From: Rosettibacter firmus
GTDB lineage: Bacteria; Bacteroidota; Ignavibacteria; Ignavibacteriales; Melioribacteraceae
Direction: 5' to 3'
Assembly: GCF_036860695.1 (NCBI RefSeq)
Contig: NZ_JAYKGJ010000001.1
Coordinates: forward strand, 806,001 to 870,000
DNA: 64,000 nucleotides
In this document: piece by piece, positions 15,317-26,624 of the stretch
How the letters are laid out: each line of letters opens with the position of its first letter
How positions within the stretch are numbered: position 1 is the first letter of the stretch
Translations under genes and position numbers: made by a program
Notes under the pieces: model-generated
Database searches by the model: none
What the model was told of the DNA's origin: nothing
What the model saw: the letters and a program-made list of their open reading frames with translations, nothing else

Positions 15317-15916
15317 ATGCAAAAACAAATTAAATATATCTTTTTTGTTATCTTAACTCTCATATACATTACAGGATGTAATGAAAATTTTCCTATCAAG
15401 CAGGATATATCGAGAACTCAAAACGAATTTTTGAATGAAGATAGCATTAAAGTAATTTTTCCTGAGATGATTAAAGGAAAAGTCACTTTAGTGACAATGA
15501 TTTATACGCACTGTCCTGATATTTGTCCAATGACAACTCATAATATGCAGTTAGTTGAATCTAAATTGAGCAAAGATGAATTAGATAAAGTCCATTTTGT
15601 TGTAATTACATTTGATCCCAATCGTGATACTCCATATGTCTTAAAAAAGTATGCTGAGATAAGAGACATTAATTTCAATCGCTGGAGTTTATTAAGCGGC
15701 AACGAACAAAGCACAAAAGAAGTTCTTTTAAAATTTGATATCAATGCTATACCGATAGATTCTTCATACGATGAGAAAGGAAATCTATCTTATTATTTTA
15801 TACACACAGATCGTATCTCTTTAATTGATCAAAAAGGACAGCTAAGAAAAAACTATACTGGAAGTATAGCAGATATTAATGAAATAGTTAATGATATAAA
15901 ATACCTTTTGAACTAA
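15317..15916 (+). CDS. SCO1/SenC family copper chaperone lipoprotein
   Basis: 199 residues. A lipoprotein signal ends YITGC (Cys at residue 21). The thioredoxin-like domain has the copper-binding CPDIC near residues 66-70 and the conserved distal His in YFIHTDR near residue 160, the full Cys-Cys-His set of SCO proteins. These proteins deliver copper to the CuA site of cytochrome c oxidase or act as thiol reductants for it. The next gene is a PCu(A)C chaperone, the usual partner in CuA loading. The oxidase genes themselves are not in the window; only the copper-free cytochrome bd is (56924-59274). Confidence 0.9.
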   Translation: MQKQIKYIFFVILTLIYITGCNENFPIKQDISRTQNEFLNEDSIKVIFPEMIKGKVTLVTMIYTHCPDICPMTTHNMQLVESKLSKDELDKVHFVVITFDPNRDTPYVLKKYAEIRDINFNRWSLLSGNEQSTKEVLLKFDINAIPIDSSYDEKGNLSYYFIHTDRISLIDQKGQLRKNYTGSIADINEIVNDIKYLLN

Positions 15917-16006
15917 TTCTTTTAGGAAATCTGTTTTTATAATAAAACCGAATTGTTATATAATTTATAAGATATTATTAATTCAAAAAAATAAATAGAA
16001 ATAAAT

Positions 16007-16438
16007 ATGAATCTACTTTTAATTTTCTTGATGTTTTTTTCATCTCAGGGGAATAAAATTAAGATTAAAGAACCCTGGATGAGAATTAGTGCCGAAGGTC
16101 AATCAACTGCACTATTTATGAAAATTGAAAATACTGGTAATATTGCAGACACACTCTACAAAGTTGAATGTGGCTTTGCAGATCGCGTAGAAATTCATGA
16201 AACATATCATCAGGGCGAAATGATGGGAATGCGAGAAGTACCATTCATTATTATACCAGAAAAATCAACATTTGAGCTAAAACCAAGAGCTCATCATATA
16301 ATGGTTATTAAGTTGAAAAAGGATATTAAGAAAGGAACTCAGGAAGAGTTTACATTATATTTCAAACAAGCTGGCAAATTGAAAGTAAAAGCTACTGCCC
16401 AGGAAATGCAAATCCAGGGAATGGGACATAAACATTAG
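16007..16438 (+). CDS. PCu(A)C-type periplasmic copper chaperone
   Basis: 143 residues with a short N-terminal export signal. The metal motif of the family is visible: a His in VEIHETYHQGEMMGM, and PRAHHIMVI further on, giving the His/Met ligands in the expected order. The protein binds Cu(I) in the periplasm and hands it to the CuA centre of cytochrome oxidase subunit II, with SCO acting as reductant or partner. It lies 90 bases after the SCO gene and is probably in the same unit. The C-terminal GMGHKH adds possible metal ligands. Confidence 0.88.
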   Translation: MNLLLIFLMFFSSQGNKIKIKEPWMRISAEGQSTALFMKIENTGNIADTLYKVECGFADRVEIHETYHQGEMMGMREVPFIIIPEKSTFELKPRAHHIMVIKLKKDIKKGTQEEFTLYFKQAGKLKVKATAQEMQIQGMGHKH

Positions 16439-16674: not shown

Positions 16675-16705
16675 TTGACTTATAATCTTATTAAATTTAT
16701 ATTTG
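16675..16705 (+). promoter_or_regulatory. Promoter of the sulfate-assimilation operon
   Basis: TTGACT (16675-16680) and TATATTTG (16698-16705) are separated by 17 bases. This fits a sigma-70 -35/-10 pair and also the TAnnTTTG -7 element of Bacteroidota-type promoters. Transcription would start near 16711, about 17 bases before the first leader ORF. Confidence 0.65.
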
Positions 16706-16727
16706 CAACAAAGTAAAAAGAACAGGC

Positions 16728-16790
16728 ATGATAAAACTTAATATAAATATTAATTGTTGTATGTGTATTAATCTCAAGAGAGGTCTGTGA
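16728..16790 (+). CDS. Cysteine leader peptide 1 (20 aa, contains Cys-Cys-Met-Cys)
   Basis: A 20-codon ORF starting with ATG shortly after the predicted transcription start. Codons 10-13 read TGT TGT ATG TGT (Cys-Cys-Met-Cys). Its TGA stop at 16788-16790 lies inside the 11-base segment 16783-16793, which can pair with the downstream terminator's 5' arm and loop. A ribosome waiting at the Cys codons would leave that segment free. A ribosome reaching the stop would cover it. This is the layout of amino-acid leader peptides such as trpL, with Cys as the sensed residue, and it stands in front of cysteine-pathway genes. The ribosome-binding site is weak (AAAAAGAACAGGC before the ATG). Function is inferred from layout; the peptide itself probably has none. 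Confidence 0.8.
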   Translation: MIKLNININCCMCINLKRGL

Positions 16791-16850
16791 AGGCACAATA
16801 AGTTTTTTATACTAACACGTAAAAGCCCTTCACAGACGAAGGGCTTTTTT
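16783..16850 (+). promoter_or_regulatory. Transcription attenuator: antiterminator versus terminator
   Basis: The segment GTCTGTGAAGG (16783-16793) is the exact reverse complement of CCTTCACAGAC (16827-16837). The latter overlaps the 5' arm and the loop of the terminator at 16822-16850, so the two structures exclude each other. The first segment contains the leader-1 stop codon. Low charged tRNA-Cys should favour the antiterminator and expression; plentiful cysteine should favour termination. Confidence 0.82.
16822..16850 (+). terminator. Intrinsic terminator of the cysteine attenuator
   Basis: AAAGCCCTTC (16822-16831) pairs with GAAGGGCTTT (16838-16847) around the loop ACAGAC, and the T-run reaches 16850. 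The stem is a perfect 10 bp. It lies 32 bases past the leader-1 stop and before all structural genes of the operon. Confidence 0.88.
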
Positions 16851-16874
16851 ATTAAATAAAGAAAGGGTTGAAAA

Positions 16875-17015
16875 ATGAAAACATTAAGAAAAAAGAGATC
16901 GAAGATTAAGTTAACTAATAACTTAAATTCAATAAAATCCATTCATTCATATTTATCATCCTTCAATTCATCTATCTACTGTATCTGTACCCCCTCTATG
17001 TGTTGCTGCTGTTAA
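16875..17015 (+). CDS. Cysteine-rich leader peptide 2 (46 aa, ends in four Cys)
   Basis: An ORF of 46 codons from ATG at 16875 with AAAGGG about eight bases upstream. It has a basic N-terminus (MKTLRKKRSKIK), a Ser/Asn-rich middle, and the C-terminus YCICTPSMCCCC directly before TAA. Six of the last eleven residues are Cys, using both TGT and TGC codons. It lies just after the attenuator terminator and 99 bases before the DUF2061 gene. I read it as a second cysteine-sensing leader, perhaps acting on translation, mRNA stability or Rho access, since I see no second intrinsic terminator behind it. A small functional Cys-rich peptide (for example metal-binding) is the alternative. Confidence 0.68.
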   Translation: MKTLRKKRSKIKLTNNLNSIKSIHSYLSSFNSSIYCICTPSMCCCC

Positions 17016-17114
17016 TTTCTTCCTCTAGCTATAAATAAAATTTCACTAAATATTCTTAACACTTTATAAGTATAATTTAAAACTTTAGTATTATTCATTA
17101 GCAGGATAATAAGA

Positions 17115-17345
17115 ATGCATGACAAGCATTATAGAAGTATAATAAAATCTATAACCTGGCGATTAACTGGAAGTATTGATACAACCATAATTTCGTATTT
17201 ATTAACCGGTGATTATAAAATTGCTTTATCAATTGGTGGAATAGAAATCTTCACAAAAATTATACTTTATTATTTACATGAAAGAATCTGGAATAAAATA
17301 AAATTCGGGAAAGAACAAAAGTCAGAACCAGAATATCATATTTGA
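17115..17345 (+). CDS. DUF2061 small membrane protein
   Basis: 76 residues with the DUF2061 pattern: a conserved N-terminal KSITWRLTGSIDTT, two short hydrophobic segments and a YYLHERIWNKIKFG C-terminus. The family is often found next to sulfate-assimilation genes, sometimes fused to an APS kinase. Its biochemical role is not established. It is the first structural gene after the two Cys leaders and ends seven bases before cysH. AGGA at 17103-17106 is the likely ribosome-binding site. Confidence 0.85.
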   Translation: MHDKHYRSIIKSITWRLTGSIDTTIISYLLTGDYKIALSIGGIEIFTKIILYYLHERIWNKIKFGKEQKSEPEYHI

Positions 17346-17352
17346 GGTAGTC

Positions 17353-18054
17353 ATGAAAATACTTGAAAAAATAAAAAATCAATTATATGACAAAGATGCT
17401 TTGGAAGTATTAAAACTTATTTCAAAGAAATTTGGAAATAAAGCAGTTTTTTCTACAAGTCTGAGTATTGAAGATCAGGTTATCACACATATGCTTGCAT
17501 CACTAAATTCAAAAATCAAAATATTTACACTCGATACAGGCAGGTTGCCTAATGAAACTTATAATTTAATCGAAAGAACAATAGAAAGATATAATATACC
17601 GATAAAAATTTATTTCCCAAATCCTCGTTTAGTTGAAAGGATGGTTAATAGAGATGGAATAAATCTTTTTTATCGCAGTATCGAAAACAGAAAAAAATGT
17701 TGTCATGTAAGAAAAATTCAACCACTAAAACGTGCATTAAGAAATAAAAAAGTATGGATAACAGGATTAAGAAAAGAACAATCTATAACACGACAAAATA
17801 TGGAATTAGTTGAATACGATCCGGAATTCAGGATTATAAAAGTTAATCCATTAATTAATTGGACAGAAAAAGAAGTATGGGATTATATTAAAAAATATAA
17901 CATACCATACAACAGTCTTTATGATAAAAATTATACAAGCATTGGATGTGAACCATGTACAAGAGCAACACTGCCGGGCGAAGATATTCGAGCCGGTAGA
18001 TGGTGGTGGGAACATCCCGAAACTAAAGAATGCGGTTTACACATTAAACATTAA
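17353..18054 (+). CDS. cysH: Adenylyl-sulfate (APS) reductase, [4Fe-4S] CysH type
   Basis: 233 residues. The two cysteine pairs that bind the [4Fe-4S] cluster in APS reductases are present: KKCCHVRK near residue 116 and GCEPC near residue 200. The C-terminal ECGLH holds the catalytic Cys that forms the thiosulfonate. [12 protein letters not shown] is also family-typical. The enzyme reduces APS to sulfite and AMP with thioredoxin. The cluster cysteines argue for APS rather than PAPS as substrate, and no APS kinase (cysC) is seen nearby, which agrees. It lies 11 bases before cysD. Confidence 0.93.
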
Positions 18055-18065
18055 AGGAGTTTGAT

Positions 18066-18947
18066 ATGGATTACCTGGATAAATTAGAAGCTCACAGCAT
18101 TTATATTTTCAGAGAAGCATATAGAGAATTTAAACATTTAGCCATGTTATGGTCTATTGGAAAAGATAGCACCGTACTTCTACATCTTGCAAGAAAAGCT
18201 TTTTTTGGTCATGTACCTTTTCCACTAATACATATAGATACTTCTTTTAAAATTCCTGAAATGATTGAATACAGAAATAAACTTGCAAGAGAATTAAAAC
18301 TAAAATTGATAGTTGGACAAAACAAAGAAGCACTTAAAACAAAACAGACTTTCCCGGATGGCAATGTTGATAGAATTACTTGCTGCAAACTTCTAAAAAC
18401 TGAAGCTTTGAAAAATACATTATCTGGACAATTTCCCAGATATAGACTTGATCACGAACTGGGTGTATTCGTTGAAGACCAAGATAAAGAAGCTTATACT
18501 GGAGTAATTGTTGGTGTAAGAGCCGACGAAGAAGGAAGTCGTTCTAAAGAACGATATTTTTCTCCAAGAGACAAAAATAGTGATTGGGATATTGGTGATC
18601 AGCCACCTGAATTGTGGAATCAATTTAAAACTGAATTTGCACCTAAAACTCATGTAAGAATTCATCCATTACTAGATTGGACAGAATTAAATATCTGGGA
18701 ATATATAGATAGAGAAAATATTCCTGTAGTATCACTTTATTTTGATAATGGCAACGGAAAAAGATATCGATCGCTTGGATGCTATCCGTGCACTTTTCCT
18801 ATAGATTCTACTGCAAAAAATGTAAAAGAAATTATTGAAGAATTAAAAAGTGGTAAACTAAAAAATATAGCAGAAAGATCTGGAAGAGCACAGGATAAAG
18901 ACGGAGGTGGAACATTAGAAGAATTGAGAAGAGAAGGCTATATGTAA
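18066..18947 (+). CDS. cysD: Sulfate adenylyltransferase subunit 2
   Basis: 293 residues, standard length. The PP-loop [15 protein letters not shown] lies near residues 30-45. The family segments [31 protein letters not shown] and RSLGCYPCT are present, with [22 protein letters not shown] at the C-terminus. Together with CysN it makes APS from ATP and sulfate in the cytoplasm. AGGAGTTTGAT upstream gives a strong ribosome-binding site. It is followed by a 115-base gap before cysN, the largest gap inside the operon, with only weak AT hairpins in it. Confidence 0.96.
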
Positions 18948-19062: not shown

Positions 19063-20415
19063 ATGAAAGAAAGAATGAATATTGTTGTGGTTGGTCATGT
19101 AGATCATGGGAAAAGCACTTTAATTGGTCGATTACTTGCAGATACAAACTCATTACCTGTTGGTAAATTAGAACAGATTAAAAAAACTTGCGAATTAAAT
19201 GCAAAACCATTTGAGTATGCTTTTCTTCTTGATGCTTTGGTAGATGAACAAACACAGGGAATTACAATTGATACAGCAAGAATATTCTTTAAAACGAAAA
19301 AAAGAGAATATATAATTATTGATGCACCAGGTCATATCGAATTTTTGAAAAATATGATCAGTGGTGCAGCACGAGCCGAAGCAGCAATTTTATTAATTGA
19401 TGCACACGAAGGTATTGCAGAAAATACGAAGCGTCATGCATATATGCTTTCATTACTTGGTATTAATCAGATTATTGTAGCAGTAAATAAAATGGACTTA
19501 GTTGATTTCAGCGAATCCAGATTTAATCAAATTAAAAATGATTATTCAAAATATCTTAATGAAATAAATATTAATCCTGTCGAATATGTTCCTATATCAG
19601 CATTCCACGGTTTAAATTTGATCGAGCATTCAAATAAAATGTCCTGGTATAAAGGTAAAACTATTCTTGAATTAATCGATTCATTTGAAAAAGAAAAAGA
19701 AGATGAAGAAAATGATTTCAGAATGTTTGTACAGGGTGTTTATAAATTTACAGAAAATGGAGATAACCGCAGAATAATCGCTGGTACAATCAATTCAGGT
19801 ACTATTAATGTTGGAGACGAAATTATTTTTCTGCCATCTCAAAAGAAATCTATAGTAAAATCAATTGAAATATTTGGTAAAGAAGCTCCATTATTTGCAA
19901 TAGCAGAACAAGCAATTGGATTAACATTAACAACTCAAATTTATGTTAAACCGGGCGATTTAATTTGCAGAATAGATCAGCAATTGCCATATACCACTAA
20001 TCGTTTTATCGCCAATATTTTCTGGATGGGGAAAAACAATCTTAGTATTCATAAAAAATACAAACTAAAAATTGGAACTAATAAGGCTGGTGTAAGCATT
20101 GAAGCTATTAAATCTGTCATGAATGCTTCTACATTAGAAAAAGAAAATTATAGAGAAGAAGTTCATAGAAATGAAGTAGCTCAAATTATATTTAGAACAG
20201 ATAAACCAATCAGCTTTGACCTGTTCAGCAAAATTAAATCAACTGGAAGATTTGTAATTGTTGACGAATATGATATAGCTGGTGGTGGAATTATCATAGA
20301 AGCTCTTGAAGAAAAAGAAGAATTGGTTACTCCAGATTATTCTGGCTTCGAAAGAGAATTATATGAATTAATTAAAAAATATTTCCCCCACTGGGAAATA
20401 AAACCAATTTACTAA
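19063..20415 (+). CDS. cysN: Sulfate adenylyltransferase subunit 1 (GTPase)
   Basis: 450 residues, the stand-alone length without a fused APS kinase. It is an EF-Tu-like GTPase with G1 GHVDHGKST at residues 11-19, the [10 protein letters not shown] switch region, G3 DAPGH and G4 NKMD. Beta-barrel domains 2 and 3 follow. GTP hydrolysis by CysN drives APS formation by CysD. The absence of a kinase domain agrees with the APS-type CysH upstream. GGGGATCTA in front of the ATG is the likely ribosome-binding site. Confidence 0.95.
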
Positions 20416-20435: not shown

Positions 20436-21788
20436 ATGGAAAAGATAAATAAATATAAAATAAATTCATTGCCAATTTTATTAAGAAATCCAAAAATTTT
20501 ACTGATTGGCGGTGGTAATGTAGCTTTTCAAAAAGCTAAAGTATTAATAGAAAACGAAATTGAATTCTTTATTATAGCAGAGAAAGTTTGTGAAGAATTA
20601 AAATATTTCAATATTCCATACAAGCAAAAGAAATTTGAAAAGAGTGATGCAGATAATTTCAATATAATTATAAATGCAACTGGAAATGATGAAGTAAAAA
20701 ATATAATCAATGAAATTAAGAAAGAAAGATTTATTCTTGTCAATACAGTTGATGTACCTGAAGAATGTGATTTTTACTTTTCATCTTTACTTTTGTATAA
20801 AAATTTAAAAATAGCCGTATCAAGTGATGGTGCCAGTCCAACTTTAACTCAAATAGTTAGAGATAAAATAAAACAATTATTACCTGATAGACTCGGAGAA
20901 TTTGCAGAGAAAAAATTATATGAAAGGATTAATTCAAAAATTGAAATTGAAGAAACCAAAAAAGAAACATTACGTTTATTTGGAAAAGTTTATATCATTG
21001 GTTGCGGTATTGGAGGAGTTGACTTTTTAACAATAAAAGCATTTAAAACTTTACAATATCTCGATATAGTTTTTTATGATCATCTTATTGATGATGAAAT
21101 ATTAGACATACTTCCTAAGAAAACAAAAAAAATTTATGTAGGGAAATGCAAAGGAAAACACTCTTTATCACAAGATGAAATTAATAATTTATTACTGGAA
21201 TTTGCATTAAAAGGAATGAAAGTGGGCAGATTAAAAAATGGAGATCCTTTTATATTCGGTAGAGGTGCAGAAGAAGCAGAATTTTTAATAAATAACAATA
21301 TCGATGTTGAAATTATTCCCGGTATCTCTTCGGCTTTTGCTGCACCATTAGCAGCTGGAATACCACCTACTTCAAGAGGATTCGCAAATTCAGTTTCAGT
21401 TGTTACTGGACACGTTAGTGGTGGAGCTTTTGACAGTTCTTGGATAGAACTATTAAAAAGAAAAAATCATACTACAATTGTTTTGATGGGTTTAACACAG
21501 GTTGAAAATATTTATCATTATGCAATTAATTCAGGCATCGATAAAAATTTACCTGTTGCTATTGTCTCAAATGCTGCAAGCAGCAATCAAAAAGTTTTTA
21601 CTGGCAATCTTGAAAATCTAATTGCACTTTCTAAAGAAGCAACTTCTCCTGCTGTTTTAATATTCGGTGAAGTAATTAAATACTCAAATATACTCCCACA
21701 TTACGAAGCTGGATTTAATGAATTAAATTACCTTTCAACCGAAACTTCAAGTAATGATTTATTAAAAAAAGAAAGGGTGTTATTATGA
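20436..21788 (+). CDS. cysG: Siroheme synthase: precorrin-2 dehydrogenase / SUMT fusion (CysG-like)
   Basis: 450 residues. The N-terminal part (about 1-165) has the NAD-binding IGGGNVAFQKA and SSDGASPTLTQ of precorrin-2 dehydrogenase/ferrochelatase. The C-terminal part (about 182-425) is a uroporphyrinogen-III methyltransferase with VYIIGCGIGG, YDHLID, RLKNGDPFIFGRGAEEAEFL and PGISSAFAAP. The fusion makes siroheme from uroporphyrinogen III, the cofactor of the sulfite reductase encoded next. The gene overlaps that reductase by four bases (ATGA). The SUMT nucleotide loop reads GCGIGGVDFLT rather than the common GAGPGDPxLLT, a modest deviation. Confidence 0.92.
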   Translation: MEKINKYKINSLPILLRNPKILLIGGGNVAFQKAKVLIENEIEFFIIAEKVCEELKYFNIPYKQKKFEKSDADNFNIIINATGNDEVKNIINEIKKERFILVNTVDVPEECDFYFSSLLLYKNLKIAVSSDGASPTLTQIVRDKIKQLLPDRLGEFAEKKLYERINSKIEIEETKKETLRLFGKVYIIGCGIGGVDFLTIKAFKTLQYLDIVFYDHLIDDEILDILPKKTKKIYVGKCKGKHSLSQDEINNLLLEFALKGMKVGRLKNGDPFIFGRGAEEAEFLINNNIDVEIIPGISSAFAAPLAAGIPPTSRGFANSVSVVTGHVSGGAFDSSWIELLKRKNHTTIVLMGLTQVENIYHYAINSGIDKNLPVAIVSNAASSNQKVFTGNLENLIALSKEATSPAVLIFGEVIKYSNILPHYEAGFNELNYLSTETSSNDLLKKERVLL

Positions 21789-24001
21789 CACAAATAAAAA
21801 TTTGGGAACAAATAGACATTAATAGTGGATTTGATGTTTATAGTGAAATTAATGAATATGAAGAGATAATCCACAAATTAAAAAACCAGGAAATCCACCC
21901 TGAAAGATTTAAAGGATATCGTCTTACTTTTGGAACTTATGGTGTAAGGCATCATGGCGAGGGAATCCACATGCAAAGAATTAAAATTCCGAGTGGTTTT
22001 ATTCTCTCAGAACAACTAAGACAAATTGCTTCAATTGTTGAAAAATATGTTGGTTCACAACATGCACATTTAACAACACGACAGGATATTCAATTACATT
22101 TTATAAAAATTGACGACATCCCTACAATATTACGTCTACTTGCAGATGTTGGTATTACAGCAAAAGAAGCATGCGGTAATAGTGTACGAAATATAACTTC
22201 TTCATATTTATCGGGAATTAATCCAGAAGAATATTTTGATGTTCTTCCTTATGCTATATTTTGCACAAGATATTTTTTACGACATCCACTTTCTTCTACA
22301 CTACCAAGAAAATTTAAAATTACTTTCTCGGAAAGTGAACAGGATTTAGCTTATTCAAGAATTCATGATATTGGTTGCATTGCACAAATACAAAAAAATG
22401 GTAATGACTTACAGTATGGATTTAAAGTTTATGTTGGTGGTGGACTCGGTTCGGTACCTATGACAGCTTATCCTCTCTTTGATTTTGTATCGGTATCAGA
22501 TTTTTATCCACTAGCTGAAGCTATTTTAAGAGTGTTCCATAAATATGGAACTGAAGAAAGAAAAAATAGAAACCGTGCAAGAATGAAATTTTTAATTGCC
22601 AGAATTGGTTTTGAAAATTTCAAAGATCTGGTTATAAAAGAATTTATTTCACTTAAAAATTTTAGAAGAATAAATAATGAACTCGAAAAATATGTTCAGG
22701 ATTTTCCATTACCTGCTCCAACAAAAAATGGTCGCAGTGATGGTCCCATAAATACCTCAAGAATTAAATTGCCATTATATTCAAATTATGATTTTGAAAA
22801 AGATGCTCTCTGGAATACTTTTATTAAAAAATATACAATTAAACAAAAGCAAGATGGTTACTTTGCACTTTTTGTAAAACCACCACTTGGAAATTTAAAT
22901 GCAGAGAAATTAAACATAATAGCCAATTTCTCAGATTCATACGGTGCAGGTTATGTAAGAATTACTCCAACACAAAAATTATTAATACCCTGGATCGAAG
23001 AAAAATTCTTAAAAGATGCATTTCACTTCTTAAAAGAAAATAAATTTATTGGAGAAGAAACTGAGGCAATGCAAGAAATTGTCTCATGCCCGGGTGCATT
23101 TTCCTGTCGCCTTGCTGTTACTCATCCATACAATTTTGCAGAACATATTGGTAAAAACATTGATGAACTTCATGGATTGCGTATTCATATTTCAGGATGT
23201 CCAAATTCATGTGGTCAACATCATATTGGTGATATTGGATTTTTTGGTGCATCGCTTAAAGTCGATGGAAAACTTTCGCCACATTATGTTGTATTGCTTG
23301 GAGGAAATGTTTTTTATCAGAGTAATAGAATTGGACAGGTAATTGGTAAAATACCTGCATTAAATGCGCACTTATTTGTTAAAGATATTGTTCAATTATG
23401 GAATGAACAAAAATTAGATGGTGAAAAATTTTATGAATTTGTCGATAGAATTGGAATTGACACTTTCAGAAAATTATTAATAAAAAATTCAACTGTTGAA
23501 AAAGATAATTACGATTATTTCCATGAACCAGGTATTGAATCAGAATTCAAAATGGAAGCTGAATCACGTGGTGAGTGTGCTGGAAGTCTTCTCGACATCA
23601 TGGCAATAAATCTTTATGATTCAATTAGAAATATTTATGAAGCCGAAGATGATATTAAAGCTAAAAACTGGTCTGCTGTAAAAGAAAAATGCCTGGATTC
23701 AATACTCAAATGTGCTAAGATGTATGTATATCTTGAAGGAATTGAACCAACTTCTGAAGATGAAATACTCAATGAGTTTGTAGAAAGAATTAACATAAAA
23801 CACTGGTTATGCAACGATTGGTCTGATATTAAAGAAAAATATTTCATCTGGAAATATTCATCAGATAACGAAATTAATGCAATTGAAATACTCAACTATA
23901 CAAAAGAATTTGTAAAAGATTCTGATAAATCTTATATGCGATTATTGCCAAACTTAAAAATTATGGAATGTGCAAAAATTACGGAGGATAACAATGACTG
24001 A
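21785..24001 (+). CDS. Ferredoxin-type sulfite (nitrite) reductase with C-terminal helical extension
   Basis: 738 residues. Two ferrite-type half domains and two siroheme/[4Fe-4S] domains occupy about residues 1-560. The cluster cysteines are in SCPGAFSC (about 435) and SGCPNSCGQH (about 472). TTRQDIQLHFI and EACGNSVRNIT near the N-terminus fit the family. It reduces sulfite to sulfide, given its position between siroheme synthase and cysteine synthase; nitrite is the alternative substrate. Residues after about 590 form an extra, mostly helical region of about 140 residues (LYDSIRNIYEAEDDIKAKNW, ILKCAKMYVYLEGIEPTSED) that resembles a HEPN-type bundle. Its role is unknown. Confidence 0.9.
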   Translation: MTQIKIWEQIDINSGFDVYSEINEYEEIIHKLKNQEIHPERFKGYRLTFGTYGVRHHGEGIHMQRIKIPSGFILSEQLRQIASIVEKYVGSQHAHLTTRQDIQLHFIKIDDIPTILRLLADVGITAKEACGNSVRNITSSYLSGINPEEYFDVLPYAIFCTRYFLRHPLSSTLPRKFKITFSESEQDLAYSRIHDIGCIAQIQKNGNDLQYGFKVYVGGGLGSVPMTAYPLFDFVSVSDFYPLAEAILRVFHKYGTEERKNRNRARMKFLIARIGFENFKDLVIKEFISLKNFRRINNELEKYVQDFPLPAPTKNGRSDGPINTSRIKLPLYSNYDFEKDALWNTFIKKYTIKQKQDGYFALFVKPPLGNLNAEKLNIIANFSDSYGAGYVRITPTQKLLIPWIEEKFLKDAFHFLKENKFIGEETEAMQEIVSCPGAFSCRLAVTHPYNFAEHIGKNIDELHGLRIHISGCPNSCGQHHIGDIGFFGASLKVDGKLSPHYVVLLGGNVFYQSNRIGQVIGKIPALNAHLFVKDIVQLWNEQKLDGEKFYEFVDRIGIDTFRKLLIKNSTVEKDNYDYFHEPGIESEFKMEAESRGECAGSLLDIMAINLYDSIRNIYEAEDDIKAKNWSAVKEKCLDSILKCAKMYVYLEGIEPTSEDEILNEFVERINIKHWLCNDWSDIKEKYFIWKYSSDNEINAIEILNYTKEFVKDSDKSYMRLLPNLKIMECAKITEDNND

Positions 24002-24241: not shown

Positions 24242-25165
24242 ATGAGAATTGCAGAAGACATAACAAAATTAATCGGCAATACACCTCTGGTTAAAATTAA
24301 TAAAATAACTAAAGACTCAGAAGCAACTGTCGTAGCAAAATTAGAATCGTTTAATCCATGTGCTTCTGTTAAAGATAGAATTGGTGTTTCGATGATCGAA
24401 GATGCCGAACAAAAAGGTTTAATCAATAAAGATACTATAATTGTTGAACCAACTTCAGGTAATACTGGATTAGCACTCGCTTTCGTAGCAGCTGCAAAAG
24501 GATATAAAGTAATCATAACTATGCCTGAATCTATGAGCATTGAAAGAAAAAAATTACTTGAATTATTTGGAGCAGAAGTTATTCTTACACCAGCAGAAAA
24601 AGGAATGCAGGGTTCAATTGATAAAGCAGAAGAAATATTAAAGAACACAAAAAATTCCTTTATGCCTTATCAATTCAAGAATCCTGCTAATCCAGAAATA
24701 CACAGAAAAACTACTGCAGAAGAAATCTGGAATGATACAGATGGAAAGATTGATATTTTTATTGCTGGTGTTGGAACCGGAGGCACTATAACCGGTGTTT
24801 CTGAAGTATTAAAACAAAGAAAGCCAGAATTAAAAACTATTGCAGTCGAACCATATAGTTCAGCTGTTCTTTCAGGTGATAAACCCGGTCCACATATGAT
24901 TCAGGGAATTGGAGCTGGATTTATACCAGAAGTATTGAATGTCAATATTATTGATGAAATCATAAAAGTAAAAAACGAAGATGCATTAAATATGGCTAAA
25001 AGAATTATAAAAGAAGAAGGGATACTTGTAGGAATTTCAAGTGGTGCTGCTATGTATGCAGCTCTTCAAGTTGCAAATAGAAAAGAAAATAAAGACAAAT
25101 TAATTGTTGTAATTTTTCCAGATACTGGAGAAAGATATTTATCAATCTCATTTTTTACATCTTAA
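24242..25165 (+). CDS. cysK: Cysteine synthase (O-acetylserine sulfhydrylase)
   Basis: 307 residues. The PLP lysine is K44 in [11 protein letters not shown]. The PLP phosphate/substrate loop TSGNTG is near residue 75, [11 protein letters not shown] near residue 175, and [12 protein letters not shown] and SSGAAM in the C-terminal half. It makes cysteine from O-acetylserine and sulfide, the end product the leader peptides are predicted to sense. It lies 11 bases after tusA and 15 bases before the ThiS-like gene. No cysE is in the window. CysK and CysM types cannot be separated with certainty by eye. Confidence 0.94.
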
Positions 25166-25180
25166 TTTAAGGAGGAGATT

Positions 25181-25399
25181 ATGGAATTAACTATCAATGG
25201 AAAAAAAGAAATTATCAATAAAGAAAAACTAACAGTTAGTGAATTACTCAAATTAAAAGATGTTCAGATGCCCGAAATGGTATCTGTTGAATTAAATGGT
25301 GAAATAATTGATCGCAAAGATTACGATAAAATAGAATTACAAAATTCTGATACAATTGAATTTTTATATTTCATGGGTGGTGGAAACAATGGAATTTGA
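25181..25399 (+). CDS. ThiS-like sulfur carrier with residues beyond the C-terminal glycines (HcyS-like)
   Basis: 72 residues of ubiquitin-like ThiS/MoaD type (MELTINGKKEIINKEK..., SVELNGEIIDRKDYDKIEL). AAGGAGGAG lies just upstream. The C-terminus reads YFMGGG followed by NNGI, so the reactive glycine is not terminal. Carriers of this kind need trimming before adenylation; Wolinella HcyS is trimmed by the JAMM protease HcyD, and a JAMM gene closes this operon. The extra residues are encoded in the overlap with metY, whose start lies inside this gene. The thiamine role (ThiS) is less likely because no thi genes are near. Confidence 0.85.
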   Translation: MELTINGKKEIINKEKLTVSELLKLKDVQMPEMVSVELNGEIIDRKDYDKIELQNSDTIEFLYFMGGGNNGI

Positions 25400-26624
25400 A
25401 ACAAAAGCAATCCATTCGGGATTTGCTCAAGAAGAAAAATTTGGTGCAACTTTTTTCCCAATTTATGGAAGTGCTTCATTTGCTTATAAGACAGCTGAAG
25501 ACTTAAGCGAAGTATTCGAAGGAAAAAAATTTGGCTATGTATACTCGAGAATTTCAAATCCTACAGTTACAGCATTCGAACTCAGAATGAATGCACTCGA
25601 AGAAGGAATTGGTTCAATTGCAACTGCTTCGGGTATGTCTGCTATTGCTACTGTATTCTTTACTCTTACCGAACAGGAAGATGAAATAATTTCTTCAGAT
25701 TGTTTATTCGGGGGAACATATTTATTCTTTAATGAGATAATGAAAAAATATGGAGTAAAAGTTCATTACGTAAATATTAACGATATTGATTCGTGGAAAA
25801 AACTTATTAATAAAAAAACCAAACTAATTTTCTTTGAATCAATCAGTAATCCTAAACTTGAAATACCCGATTTAAAAACAATTTCTAAAATTGCACATGA
25901 ACATAATATTCCGGTTATTGTTGATAATACTGTACCTACACCTTACTTATGGCGTGCAAAATATTTCGGAGCAGATATTATTGTTCACTCAACAACCAAA
26001 TATATTTCTGGTAATGGTACAACAATTGGCGGCATATTAATAGACACAGGAAATTATGATTGGAAAAAATCTACCAATGAAAAAATAAAAGAAATGAGTT
26101 CAAAAGCAGGTAACTTTGCTTTTTTAGCTACTGCAAGGTCAAAGATCTATCAAAATATAGGATTTGCACCTTCTCCATTTAGTGCATTTCTTAATTTAAT
26201 TGGTATTGAAACTTTACCTCTTAGAATGGATAAACATTGTGAAAATGCATTAAAGCTTGCTGAGTTTTTGAAATCAAATCAAAAAGTAGTTGATGTAAAT
26301 TATCCAGGACTCCAAGTTCATAAATTTCATGAAACTGGTAGACAGCAATTCAATAATAAATTTAGTGGACTATTAACATTCTTTCTTAACTCAAAAGAAG
26401 AATGTTTTAATTTCATTAATAATCTAAAGCTTGCTAAAAACTTAGCTAATATTGGTGATACACGTACATTGGTAATTCATCCAGATTCTACAATTTATCT
26501 TAATTGTACACAAGAAGAAAAAAACTTAGCTGGTGTAAACGAAAAAATGATTAGAGTTTCTGTTGGATTAGAAAATATTAATGACATAATTGAAGATTTT
26601 AATCAAGCATTAGAAAAAATTTAA
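25389..26624 (+). CDS. metY: O-acetylhomoserine sulfhydrylase (MetY type)
   Basis: 411 residues from the ATG at 25389, which fits the family start MEFETKAIHSGF. A longer frame upstream has no support. This gene overlaps the ThiS-like gene by 11 bases, and the GGTGGTGG that encodes the carrier glycines sits at ribosome-binding distance. The PLP lysine is K204 in HSTTKYISGNGTTIGG, the MetY/MetZ form. It makes homocysteine from an O-acylhomoserine and a sulfur donor. In the Wolinella pathway the donor is a protein thiocarboxylate, and the neighbours here suggest the same. Free sulfide is the alternative donor. Confidence 0.9.
   Translation: MEFETKAIHSGFAQEEKFGATFFPIYGSASFAYKTAEDLSEVFEGKKFGYVYSRISNPTVTAFELRMNALEEGIGSIATASGMSAIATVFFTLTEQEDEIISSDCLFGGTYLFFNEIMKKYGVKVHYVNINDIDSWKKLINKKTKLIFFESISNPKLEIPDLKTISKIAHEHNIPVIVDNTVPTPYLWRAKYFGADIIVHSTTKYISGNGTTIGGILIDTGNYDWKKSTNEKIKEMSSKAGNFAFLATARSKIYQNIGFAPSPFSAFLNLIGIETLPLRMDKHCENALKLAEFLKSNQKVVDVNYPGLQVHKFHETGRQQFNNKFSGLLTFFLNSKEECFNFINNLKLAKNLANIGDTRTLVIHPDSTIYLNCTQEEKNLAGVNEKMIRVSVGLENINDIIEDFNQALEKI

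Follow-up and report, generated by a model that had tools for sequence, protein, structure and literature searches.

The textbook ribosome-mediated transcription attenuators are those of the trpL and hisL type in Enterobacteria. The locus described here resembles them in having a leader ORF with regulatory codons, a stop codon that overlaps region 2, an antiterminator hairpin that competes with a terminator hairpin and a biosynthetic operon downstream; it differs in that the codons are for cysteine, no conserved 1:2 hairpin was found, leaving only two alternative hairpins, and a second leader lies behind the first.

In Actinobacteria, cysteine leader peptides have been predicted for cys operons and for cbs, as the original prediction for this locus had noted in general terms; these leaders lack terminators, and Rho was suspected to act on them (PMC1262725). 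Mycobacterial Cys leaders have also been reported, according to a title cited in PMC13236596. In Rhodobacterales, uORFC-8-2 is a predicted Cys-codon ribosome-mediated attenuator with an intrinsic terminator, located before cysS (PMC8632094). Our element is likewise a predicted Cys-codon attenuator with an intrinsic terminator, but it belongs to another phylum, precedes DUF2061-cysHDN rather than cysS, has its Cys codons 5' of the antiterminator arm instead of inside the first stem, and is not a single leader. For Flavobacterium psychrophilum, a member of the same wider phylum in the GTDB sense, PMC9723704 mentions leader-peptide attenuators of amino-acid operons in a passage that leaves the amino acids unnamed. 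Our literature search returned no leader attenuator for Ignavibacteria and none for methionine, which does not in itself prove their absence. We know of no such sulfur regulator for the group analyzed here, the family Melioribacteraceae, which is placed in Ignavibacteriota by NCBI and in Bacteroidota by GTDB; the predicted sulfur regulon described below would be assigned to this group.

Results

A candidate cysteine attenuator upstream of the sulfate operon

The window, that is, the whole 64,000-nucleotide stretch of Rosettibacter firmus DNA analyzed in this study, contains a full set of predicted attenuator parts (element 1) and the sulfate operon behind it (Table 1). The 20-codon ORF with Cys-Cys-Met-Cys that had been predicted (ORF 1) is present; its TGA stop codon falls within the 11-nt segment GTCTGTGAAGG (16783-16793), and, as had been claimed, this segment matches the reverse complement of CCTTCACAGAC (16827-16837) at every base. 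The terminator is also there, with a loop of 6 and 11 pairs when the flanking A-U pairs are counted (10 bp had been given), followed by the T-run. Its folding energy of -16.3 kcal/mol compares with a mean of -5.0 kcal/mol for shuffled sequences (z -5.9), and the fold of the entire leader, proposed at the outset as a check, reached z -3.9. At the protector (1:2) position the leader fold of the window has only a weak local hairpin, and a non-exhaustive search of alignment A1 of the relatives found no conserved 1:2 hairpin. An Rfam covariance-model search of the whole window gave 0 matches, riboswitches and T-boxes included.

Table 1. Coordinates of the leader elements and operon genes in the window
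Feature	Position	Strand	Remarks
Promoter, Bacteroidota-type TTGAC / TATATTTG	16675..16706	+	start-to-start 23; shared with nearly all of 11 relatives
Leader peptide ORF 1, MIKLNININCCMCINLKRGL (stop)	16728..16790	+	20 codons; Cys10, Cys11, (Met12) and Cys13 predicted regulatory
Antiterminator 5' arm (counterpart of region 2 in trp)	16783..16793	+	holds ORF 1 stop codon; complement of 16827-16837
Shared segment: antiterminator 3' arm = terminator 5' arm and loop (region 3 equivalent)	16827..16837	+	
Intrinsic terminator with T-run	16821..16853 (stem-loop 16821-16848)	+	fold -16.3 kcal/mol, z -5.9
Leader peptide ORF 2, MKTLRKKRSKIKLTNNLNSIKSIHSYLSSFNSSIYCICTPSMCCCC (stop)	16875..17015	+	AAAGGG purine-rich site upstream; ends CCCC (stop)
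C-over-G stretch, in and just 3' of ORF 2	16910..17069	+	possible Rho loading region
DUF2061 membrane protein, first operon gene	17115..17345	+	PF09834, E 4.7e-23
cysH, (P)APS reductase	17353..18054	+	profile search
cysD, sulfate adenylyltransferase subunit 2	18066..18947	+	
cysN, sulfate adenylyltransferase subunit 1	19063..20415	+	
cysG-like siroheme synthase	20436..21788	+	
NirA/CysI-like sulfite or nitrite reductase	21785..24001	+	
cysK, cysteine synthase	24242..25165	+	
O-acetylhomoserine/serine sulfhydrylase-like PLP enzyme	25356..26624	+	TIGR01326, below its cut-off

The promoter with 17-base spacing that had been proposed in front of ORF 1 can be read as TTGACT (16675), a 17-base spacer and TATATT (to 16703). 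As a sigma-70 match it is not above chance on its own, with 7 rule matches found in the window against 7.5 expected, but the Bacteroidota-type form, TTGAC followed by TAnnTTTG at a start-to-start distance of 23, precedes nearly all leaders of the relatives; the same boxes are visible in G016 at a spacing one base longer. (Genomes and loci are given here by our own G and L numbers.) The original prediction had the operon right as cysHDN and following genes, but not its first gene, which encodes the DUF2061 protein and puts cysH second. The genes under the putative control of the leader (cysH, cysD, cysN, cysG-like, sulfite reductase-like and cysK) make cysteine. The genes for an SCO1/SenC-like protein and a small secreted protein (15317-16438) lie directly 5' of the leader and run in the same direction.

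Element 1 is the only combination of ORF and terminator on either strand of the window with a duplex of -10 kcal/mol or lower. In 22 dinucleotide-shuffled 64-kb windows there were 0.045 such combinations per window, i.e., one overall, and none in which a clustered-Cys ORF stood with a pairing terminator. The window has one copy of the terminator core, where 0 would be expected.

Conservation and pairing in Melioribacteraceae

CysD was found in 16 of the 79 family genomes, 12 of them with a cysH-type operon. Element 1 precedes the sulfate operon in all 12, and the Cys codons, overlapping arm and terminator are kept in every one, so the conservation of Cys codons and paired segments that the original prediction had proposed as a check is borne out; the leader and arm sequences themselves vary, and outside the Cys codons and terminator the leader is hardly conserved. 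CysD also occurs in a different kind of operon that contains cysC-like fused genes (G020, G041, G043 and a second G081 copy), and these operons have no leader. In G049, element 1 stands before genes for a solute-binding protein and an ABC transporter of the same gene run.

The Cys clusters among the relatives read CCMC, CIC, CCNNC, CMC, CCMCC, CMCMDC, CMCLCC and MCMCM. Across the 12 sulfate-operon leaders, Cys is enriched 18.5-fold and Met 7.8-fold. Many relatives intersperse Met among the leader Cys codons; the two are equal in number in some, and Met exceeds Cys in G056 and G049.

Ribosome positions were modeled in 11 genomes using the generally known footprint limits of -15 to +12 about the A-site codon. 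With a ribosome placed at the stop codon, the whole arm is masked in 10 of the 11 genomes and 77% of it in G002; with one at the regulatory Cys codons, the arm is fully free in all 11; one further Cys codon in each of G002, G040 and G081 is too near the arm and was not counted as regulatory. The antiterminator that is able to form ahead of synthesis of the terminator 3' arm has an energy of -10.5 to -22.8 kcal/mol. In equilibrium folding with the arm free, the terminator is still favored in several relatives; the choice between the two structures must therefore be made kinetically, which is also how known attenuators work.

Leader and terminator co-vary, as the original prediction had expected of related genomes, in that pairing is stronger within than between them. 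The mean arm/terminator duplex was -15.6 for native pairs and -12.6 for swapped pairs, with 4 of 20000 permutations as good (n = 10, kinship ignored); the same comparison gave 0 of 20000 for 51 elements and 4 of 20000 for the other-family set (n = 12), again with kinship ignored. In G076, CCTCC (CCTCC/GGAGG) has replaced CCCTTC in the stem, and the arm matches the new sequence. Within the terminator, there are three compensatory pairs across the relatives, all from one genome. The arm pairs over a short length of 6-7 bp in G016, G040, G056 and G081. In the near relative G082 (L011 2635-2760), the arm has GAAAG in place of GAAGG, and this G-to-A substitution weakens the duplex to -14.2 kcal/mol, compared with -18.8 kcal/mol.

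The second position: poly-Cys ORF or SAM-I riboswitch

The original prediction overlooked a second Cys-rich leader ORF (ORF 2, 16875-17015). Of the 12 genomes, 9 have ORF 2 at this place, each copy ending in CCC, CCCC or CCCCC before the stop codon, and a profile search of 76 family genomes gave no match outside these 9 places. ORF 1 differs between G082 and the window, whereas the two share the same ORF 2 at every base. In the remaining three genomes (G016, G040 and G081), a SAM-I riboswitch (RF00162) replaces ORF 2 between the Cys attenuator and the first sulfate-operon gene (L006 1313-1427; L016 1981-2080, minus strand; L019 2962-3060). Such a riboswitch is absent from the leader in the window, and it senses SAM rather than charged tRNA. 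One or the other occupies the second position in 12 of 12 genomes; element 1 is only half of the leader.

ORF 2 begins approximately 160 nt from the predicted transcript start at about 16711, and its stop codon is approximately 100 nt from DUF2061. No conserved RNA structure of the ORF 2 region was found across the relatives. When all 100-nt windows of both strands are ranked by C minus G, the C-over-G stretch falls at the 97.8-99.4 percentile, and the excess is raised in 8 of the 8 relatives measured. The genome from which the window comes encodes Rho.

Leaders before other genes

A covariance model of element 1 was searched over 391 genomes of the class and then over 395 genomes of the wider phylum. 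Leaders with CCC, arm and terminator precede cysK in G083, G111 and G112. In many genomes from three families of the order, metY is preceded by Met-rich or mixed leaders with arm and terminator, and part of this set was recovered model-free from metY upstream regions using only ORF, terminator and pairing as criteria. The metY leaders are often paired in a row (G003, G017, G049, G050, G051, G052, G054 and G084); direct tandems stand before metY, with metX or an amino-acid kinase gene next (L147, L148, L149 and L154-L158), and in one example MKPFTNNISAKNICRGMMCMIYFFAKG (stop) is followed by MNHRMLNSAIMMMCMCMSPNIRGGPD (stop). Many other relatives, and also the window's own genome (L166 148-259, minus strand), have a SAM-I riboswitch before metY, where those genomes have the leaders. 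Four class-wide model matches (L138, L139, L143 and L163) were judged false or unrelated.

In the wider phylum, Cys/Met leaders were found in two more families before metY-type genes and a MetN-like ATPase (named from protein sequence); at L223, leader MKNSNQNMKNYYSGSMCCDAVMNRMDLAYI (stop) and a terminator precede this MetN-like ABC transporter ATPase gene. At L226, leader MKNQILNIIPVIIIVIISQRLGMVY (stop), which has Ile/Val codons, and a terminator precede an ilvD-like gene, also named from its protein sequence, and this is a predicted Ile/Val attenuator. None of 76 further loci, mostly from Bacteroidales, had the full leader set in the 3 kb upstream of cysH; a weak match inspected among them, L066, was rejected as it is without a Cys ORF.

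The covariance model contains Cys/Met codon letters, so its matches are biased to them. This bias matters less when gene classes are compared with each other: Cys/(Cys+Met) is 0.59 for the Cys-rich sulfate leaders against 0.24 (p 5.8e-6), and the metY leaders are Met-rich. Codon content tracks the pathway, which is hard to explain without amino-acid sensing.

Discussion

Element 1 very probably acts on the sulfate operon as a ribosome-mediated transcription attenuator, with charged tRNA-Cys, and to some extent tRNA-Met, as its signal. Read as a trp-type system, the case for a real, conserved, cysteine-reading attenuator is well supported by sequence comparison, and the predicted element would place nearly all trp-type parts before sulfate assimilation. 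The trpL/hisL-type order that had been claimed holds for the geometry of ORF, arm and terminator; no conserved 1:2 hairpin was found in the alignment, and a second leader follows.

We propose that RNA polymerase starts approximately 20 nt 5' of ORF 1 with a ribosome trailing it. When Cys-tRNA is ample, the ribosome would reach the stop codon and cover the arm at 16783-16793, the terminator at 16821-16848 would form, and transcription would end. When Cys-tRNA is scarce, the ribosome would be held up 19-28 nt upstream, at the CCMC codons; the arm, left free, could then pair with 16827-16837 ahead of the terminator 3' arm and let transcription continue. As no conserved 1:2 hairpin was found, untranslated leader RNA should read through, and loss of the ORF 1 start codon would be predicted to cause readthrough rather than superattenuation, unlike in trpL. 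Polymerases that pass element 1 would meet a second checkpoint, where the CCCC end of ORF 2 would hold a ribosome at low Cys, and the ribosome held there would most likely limit access of Rho to the C-rich stretch.

For ORF 2, our first choice is Rho-dependent attenuation, in which Rho would bind the C-over-G stretch and stop transcription once translation has ended normally at the ORF 2 stop codon, and would be kept away by ribosomes stalled and queued at CCCC; we infer this at about an even chance, and it is compatible with the mechanism proposed above. The suggestion draws on the C minus G excess (up to the 99.4 percentile, and raised in all the relatives measured), the lack of a conserved RNA structure, the presence of a Rho gene and the suspected role of Rho at the terminator-less actinobacterial Cys leaders (PMC1262725). 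The stretch is, however, partly within ORF 2, such that its C-richness may stem from codon choice, and the region directly 5' of DUF2061 is not C-rich. The actinobacterial and mycobacterial Cys leaders resemble ORF 2 in having a Cys run beside the stop codon, no terminator and a sulfate or cysteine operon downstream; ORF 2 differs in that its mRNA is not leaderless, an intrinsic-terminator attenuator precedes it and no conserved sequestering structure was found.

Element 1 could instead sense sulfur amino acids in general, such that either low Met-tRNA or low Cys-tRNA opens the operon. The Met enrichment of the sulfate-operon leaders beside that of Cys, the excess of Met in G056 and G049 and the mixing of both codons in metY leaders are consistent with this possibility, which we nevertheless hold to be somewhat improbable: three of the four cluster codons in the window's leader are Cys, and Cys stands practically alone in ORF 2 and in the cysK leaders. 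Given the equal numbers of Met and Cys codons in some relatives, Cys may not be the only signal.

Alternatively, ORF 2 might act at translation. Mycobacterial poly-Cys short ORFs were reportedly described by Canestrari in 2020, with a stalled ribosome said to open a structure that hides the next start. By analogy, a ribosome stalled at CCCC could expose the DUF2061 start, and the poly-Cys run does abut the stop codon in 9 of 9 genomes. We consider this unlikely given the approximately 100 nt from the stop codon to DUF2061 and the lack of conserved pairs by which the ORF 2 region could sequester that start; the TCCT/AGGA candidate is lost in G082 and was rejected.

A metabolite-binding riboswitch or T-box in place of a ribosome-read leader is very improbable for element 1: SAM-I riboswitches do occur at neighboring or equivalent places in relatives, but the window has no Rfam match and the leader is hardly conserved beyond its Cys codons and terminator. 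An ordinary terminator of the upstream gene beside a chance ORF is in effect refuted, for although intergenic terminators are common and many genomes of the order use a GCCCTTC-like stem, the shuffled windows, the conserved promoter that separates the ORF from the gene before it, the Cys clusters and pairing kept in 12 genomes and the advantage of native over swapped pairing all stand against it.

Taken more widely, Bacteroidota/Ignavibacteriota probably run a distributed, ribosome-read control of sulfur amino acids, with Cys leaders for sulfate assimilation and cysK, Cys/Met leaders, often tandem, for methionine synthesis, and SAM-I riboswitches interchangeable with them; the sulfate operon would have two unlike checkpoints, the first an intrinsic terminator and the second a poly-Cys leader that probably works through Rho. 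At the same genes, leader peptides and SAM-I riboswitches substitute for each other. Cys leaders themselves are already known elsewhere, and the more novel part is the tandem design together with the Met leaders. With an intrinsic-terminator leader in tandem with a poly-Cys leader or SAM riboswitch, the control of one operon by two signals can be tested directly. Met-codon transcription attenuators, if true, would be a new specificity within the literature searched, and one not usually listed for attenuation. Outside cysteine synthesis, G155 has Cys-rich leaders and terminators before genes for secreted Omp28/Por-secretion proteins and a DUF4395 gene (L150, L151 and L152).
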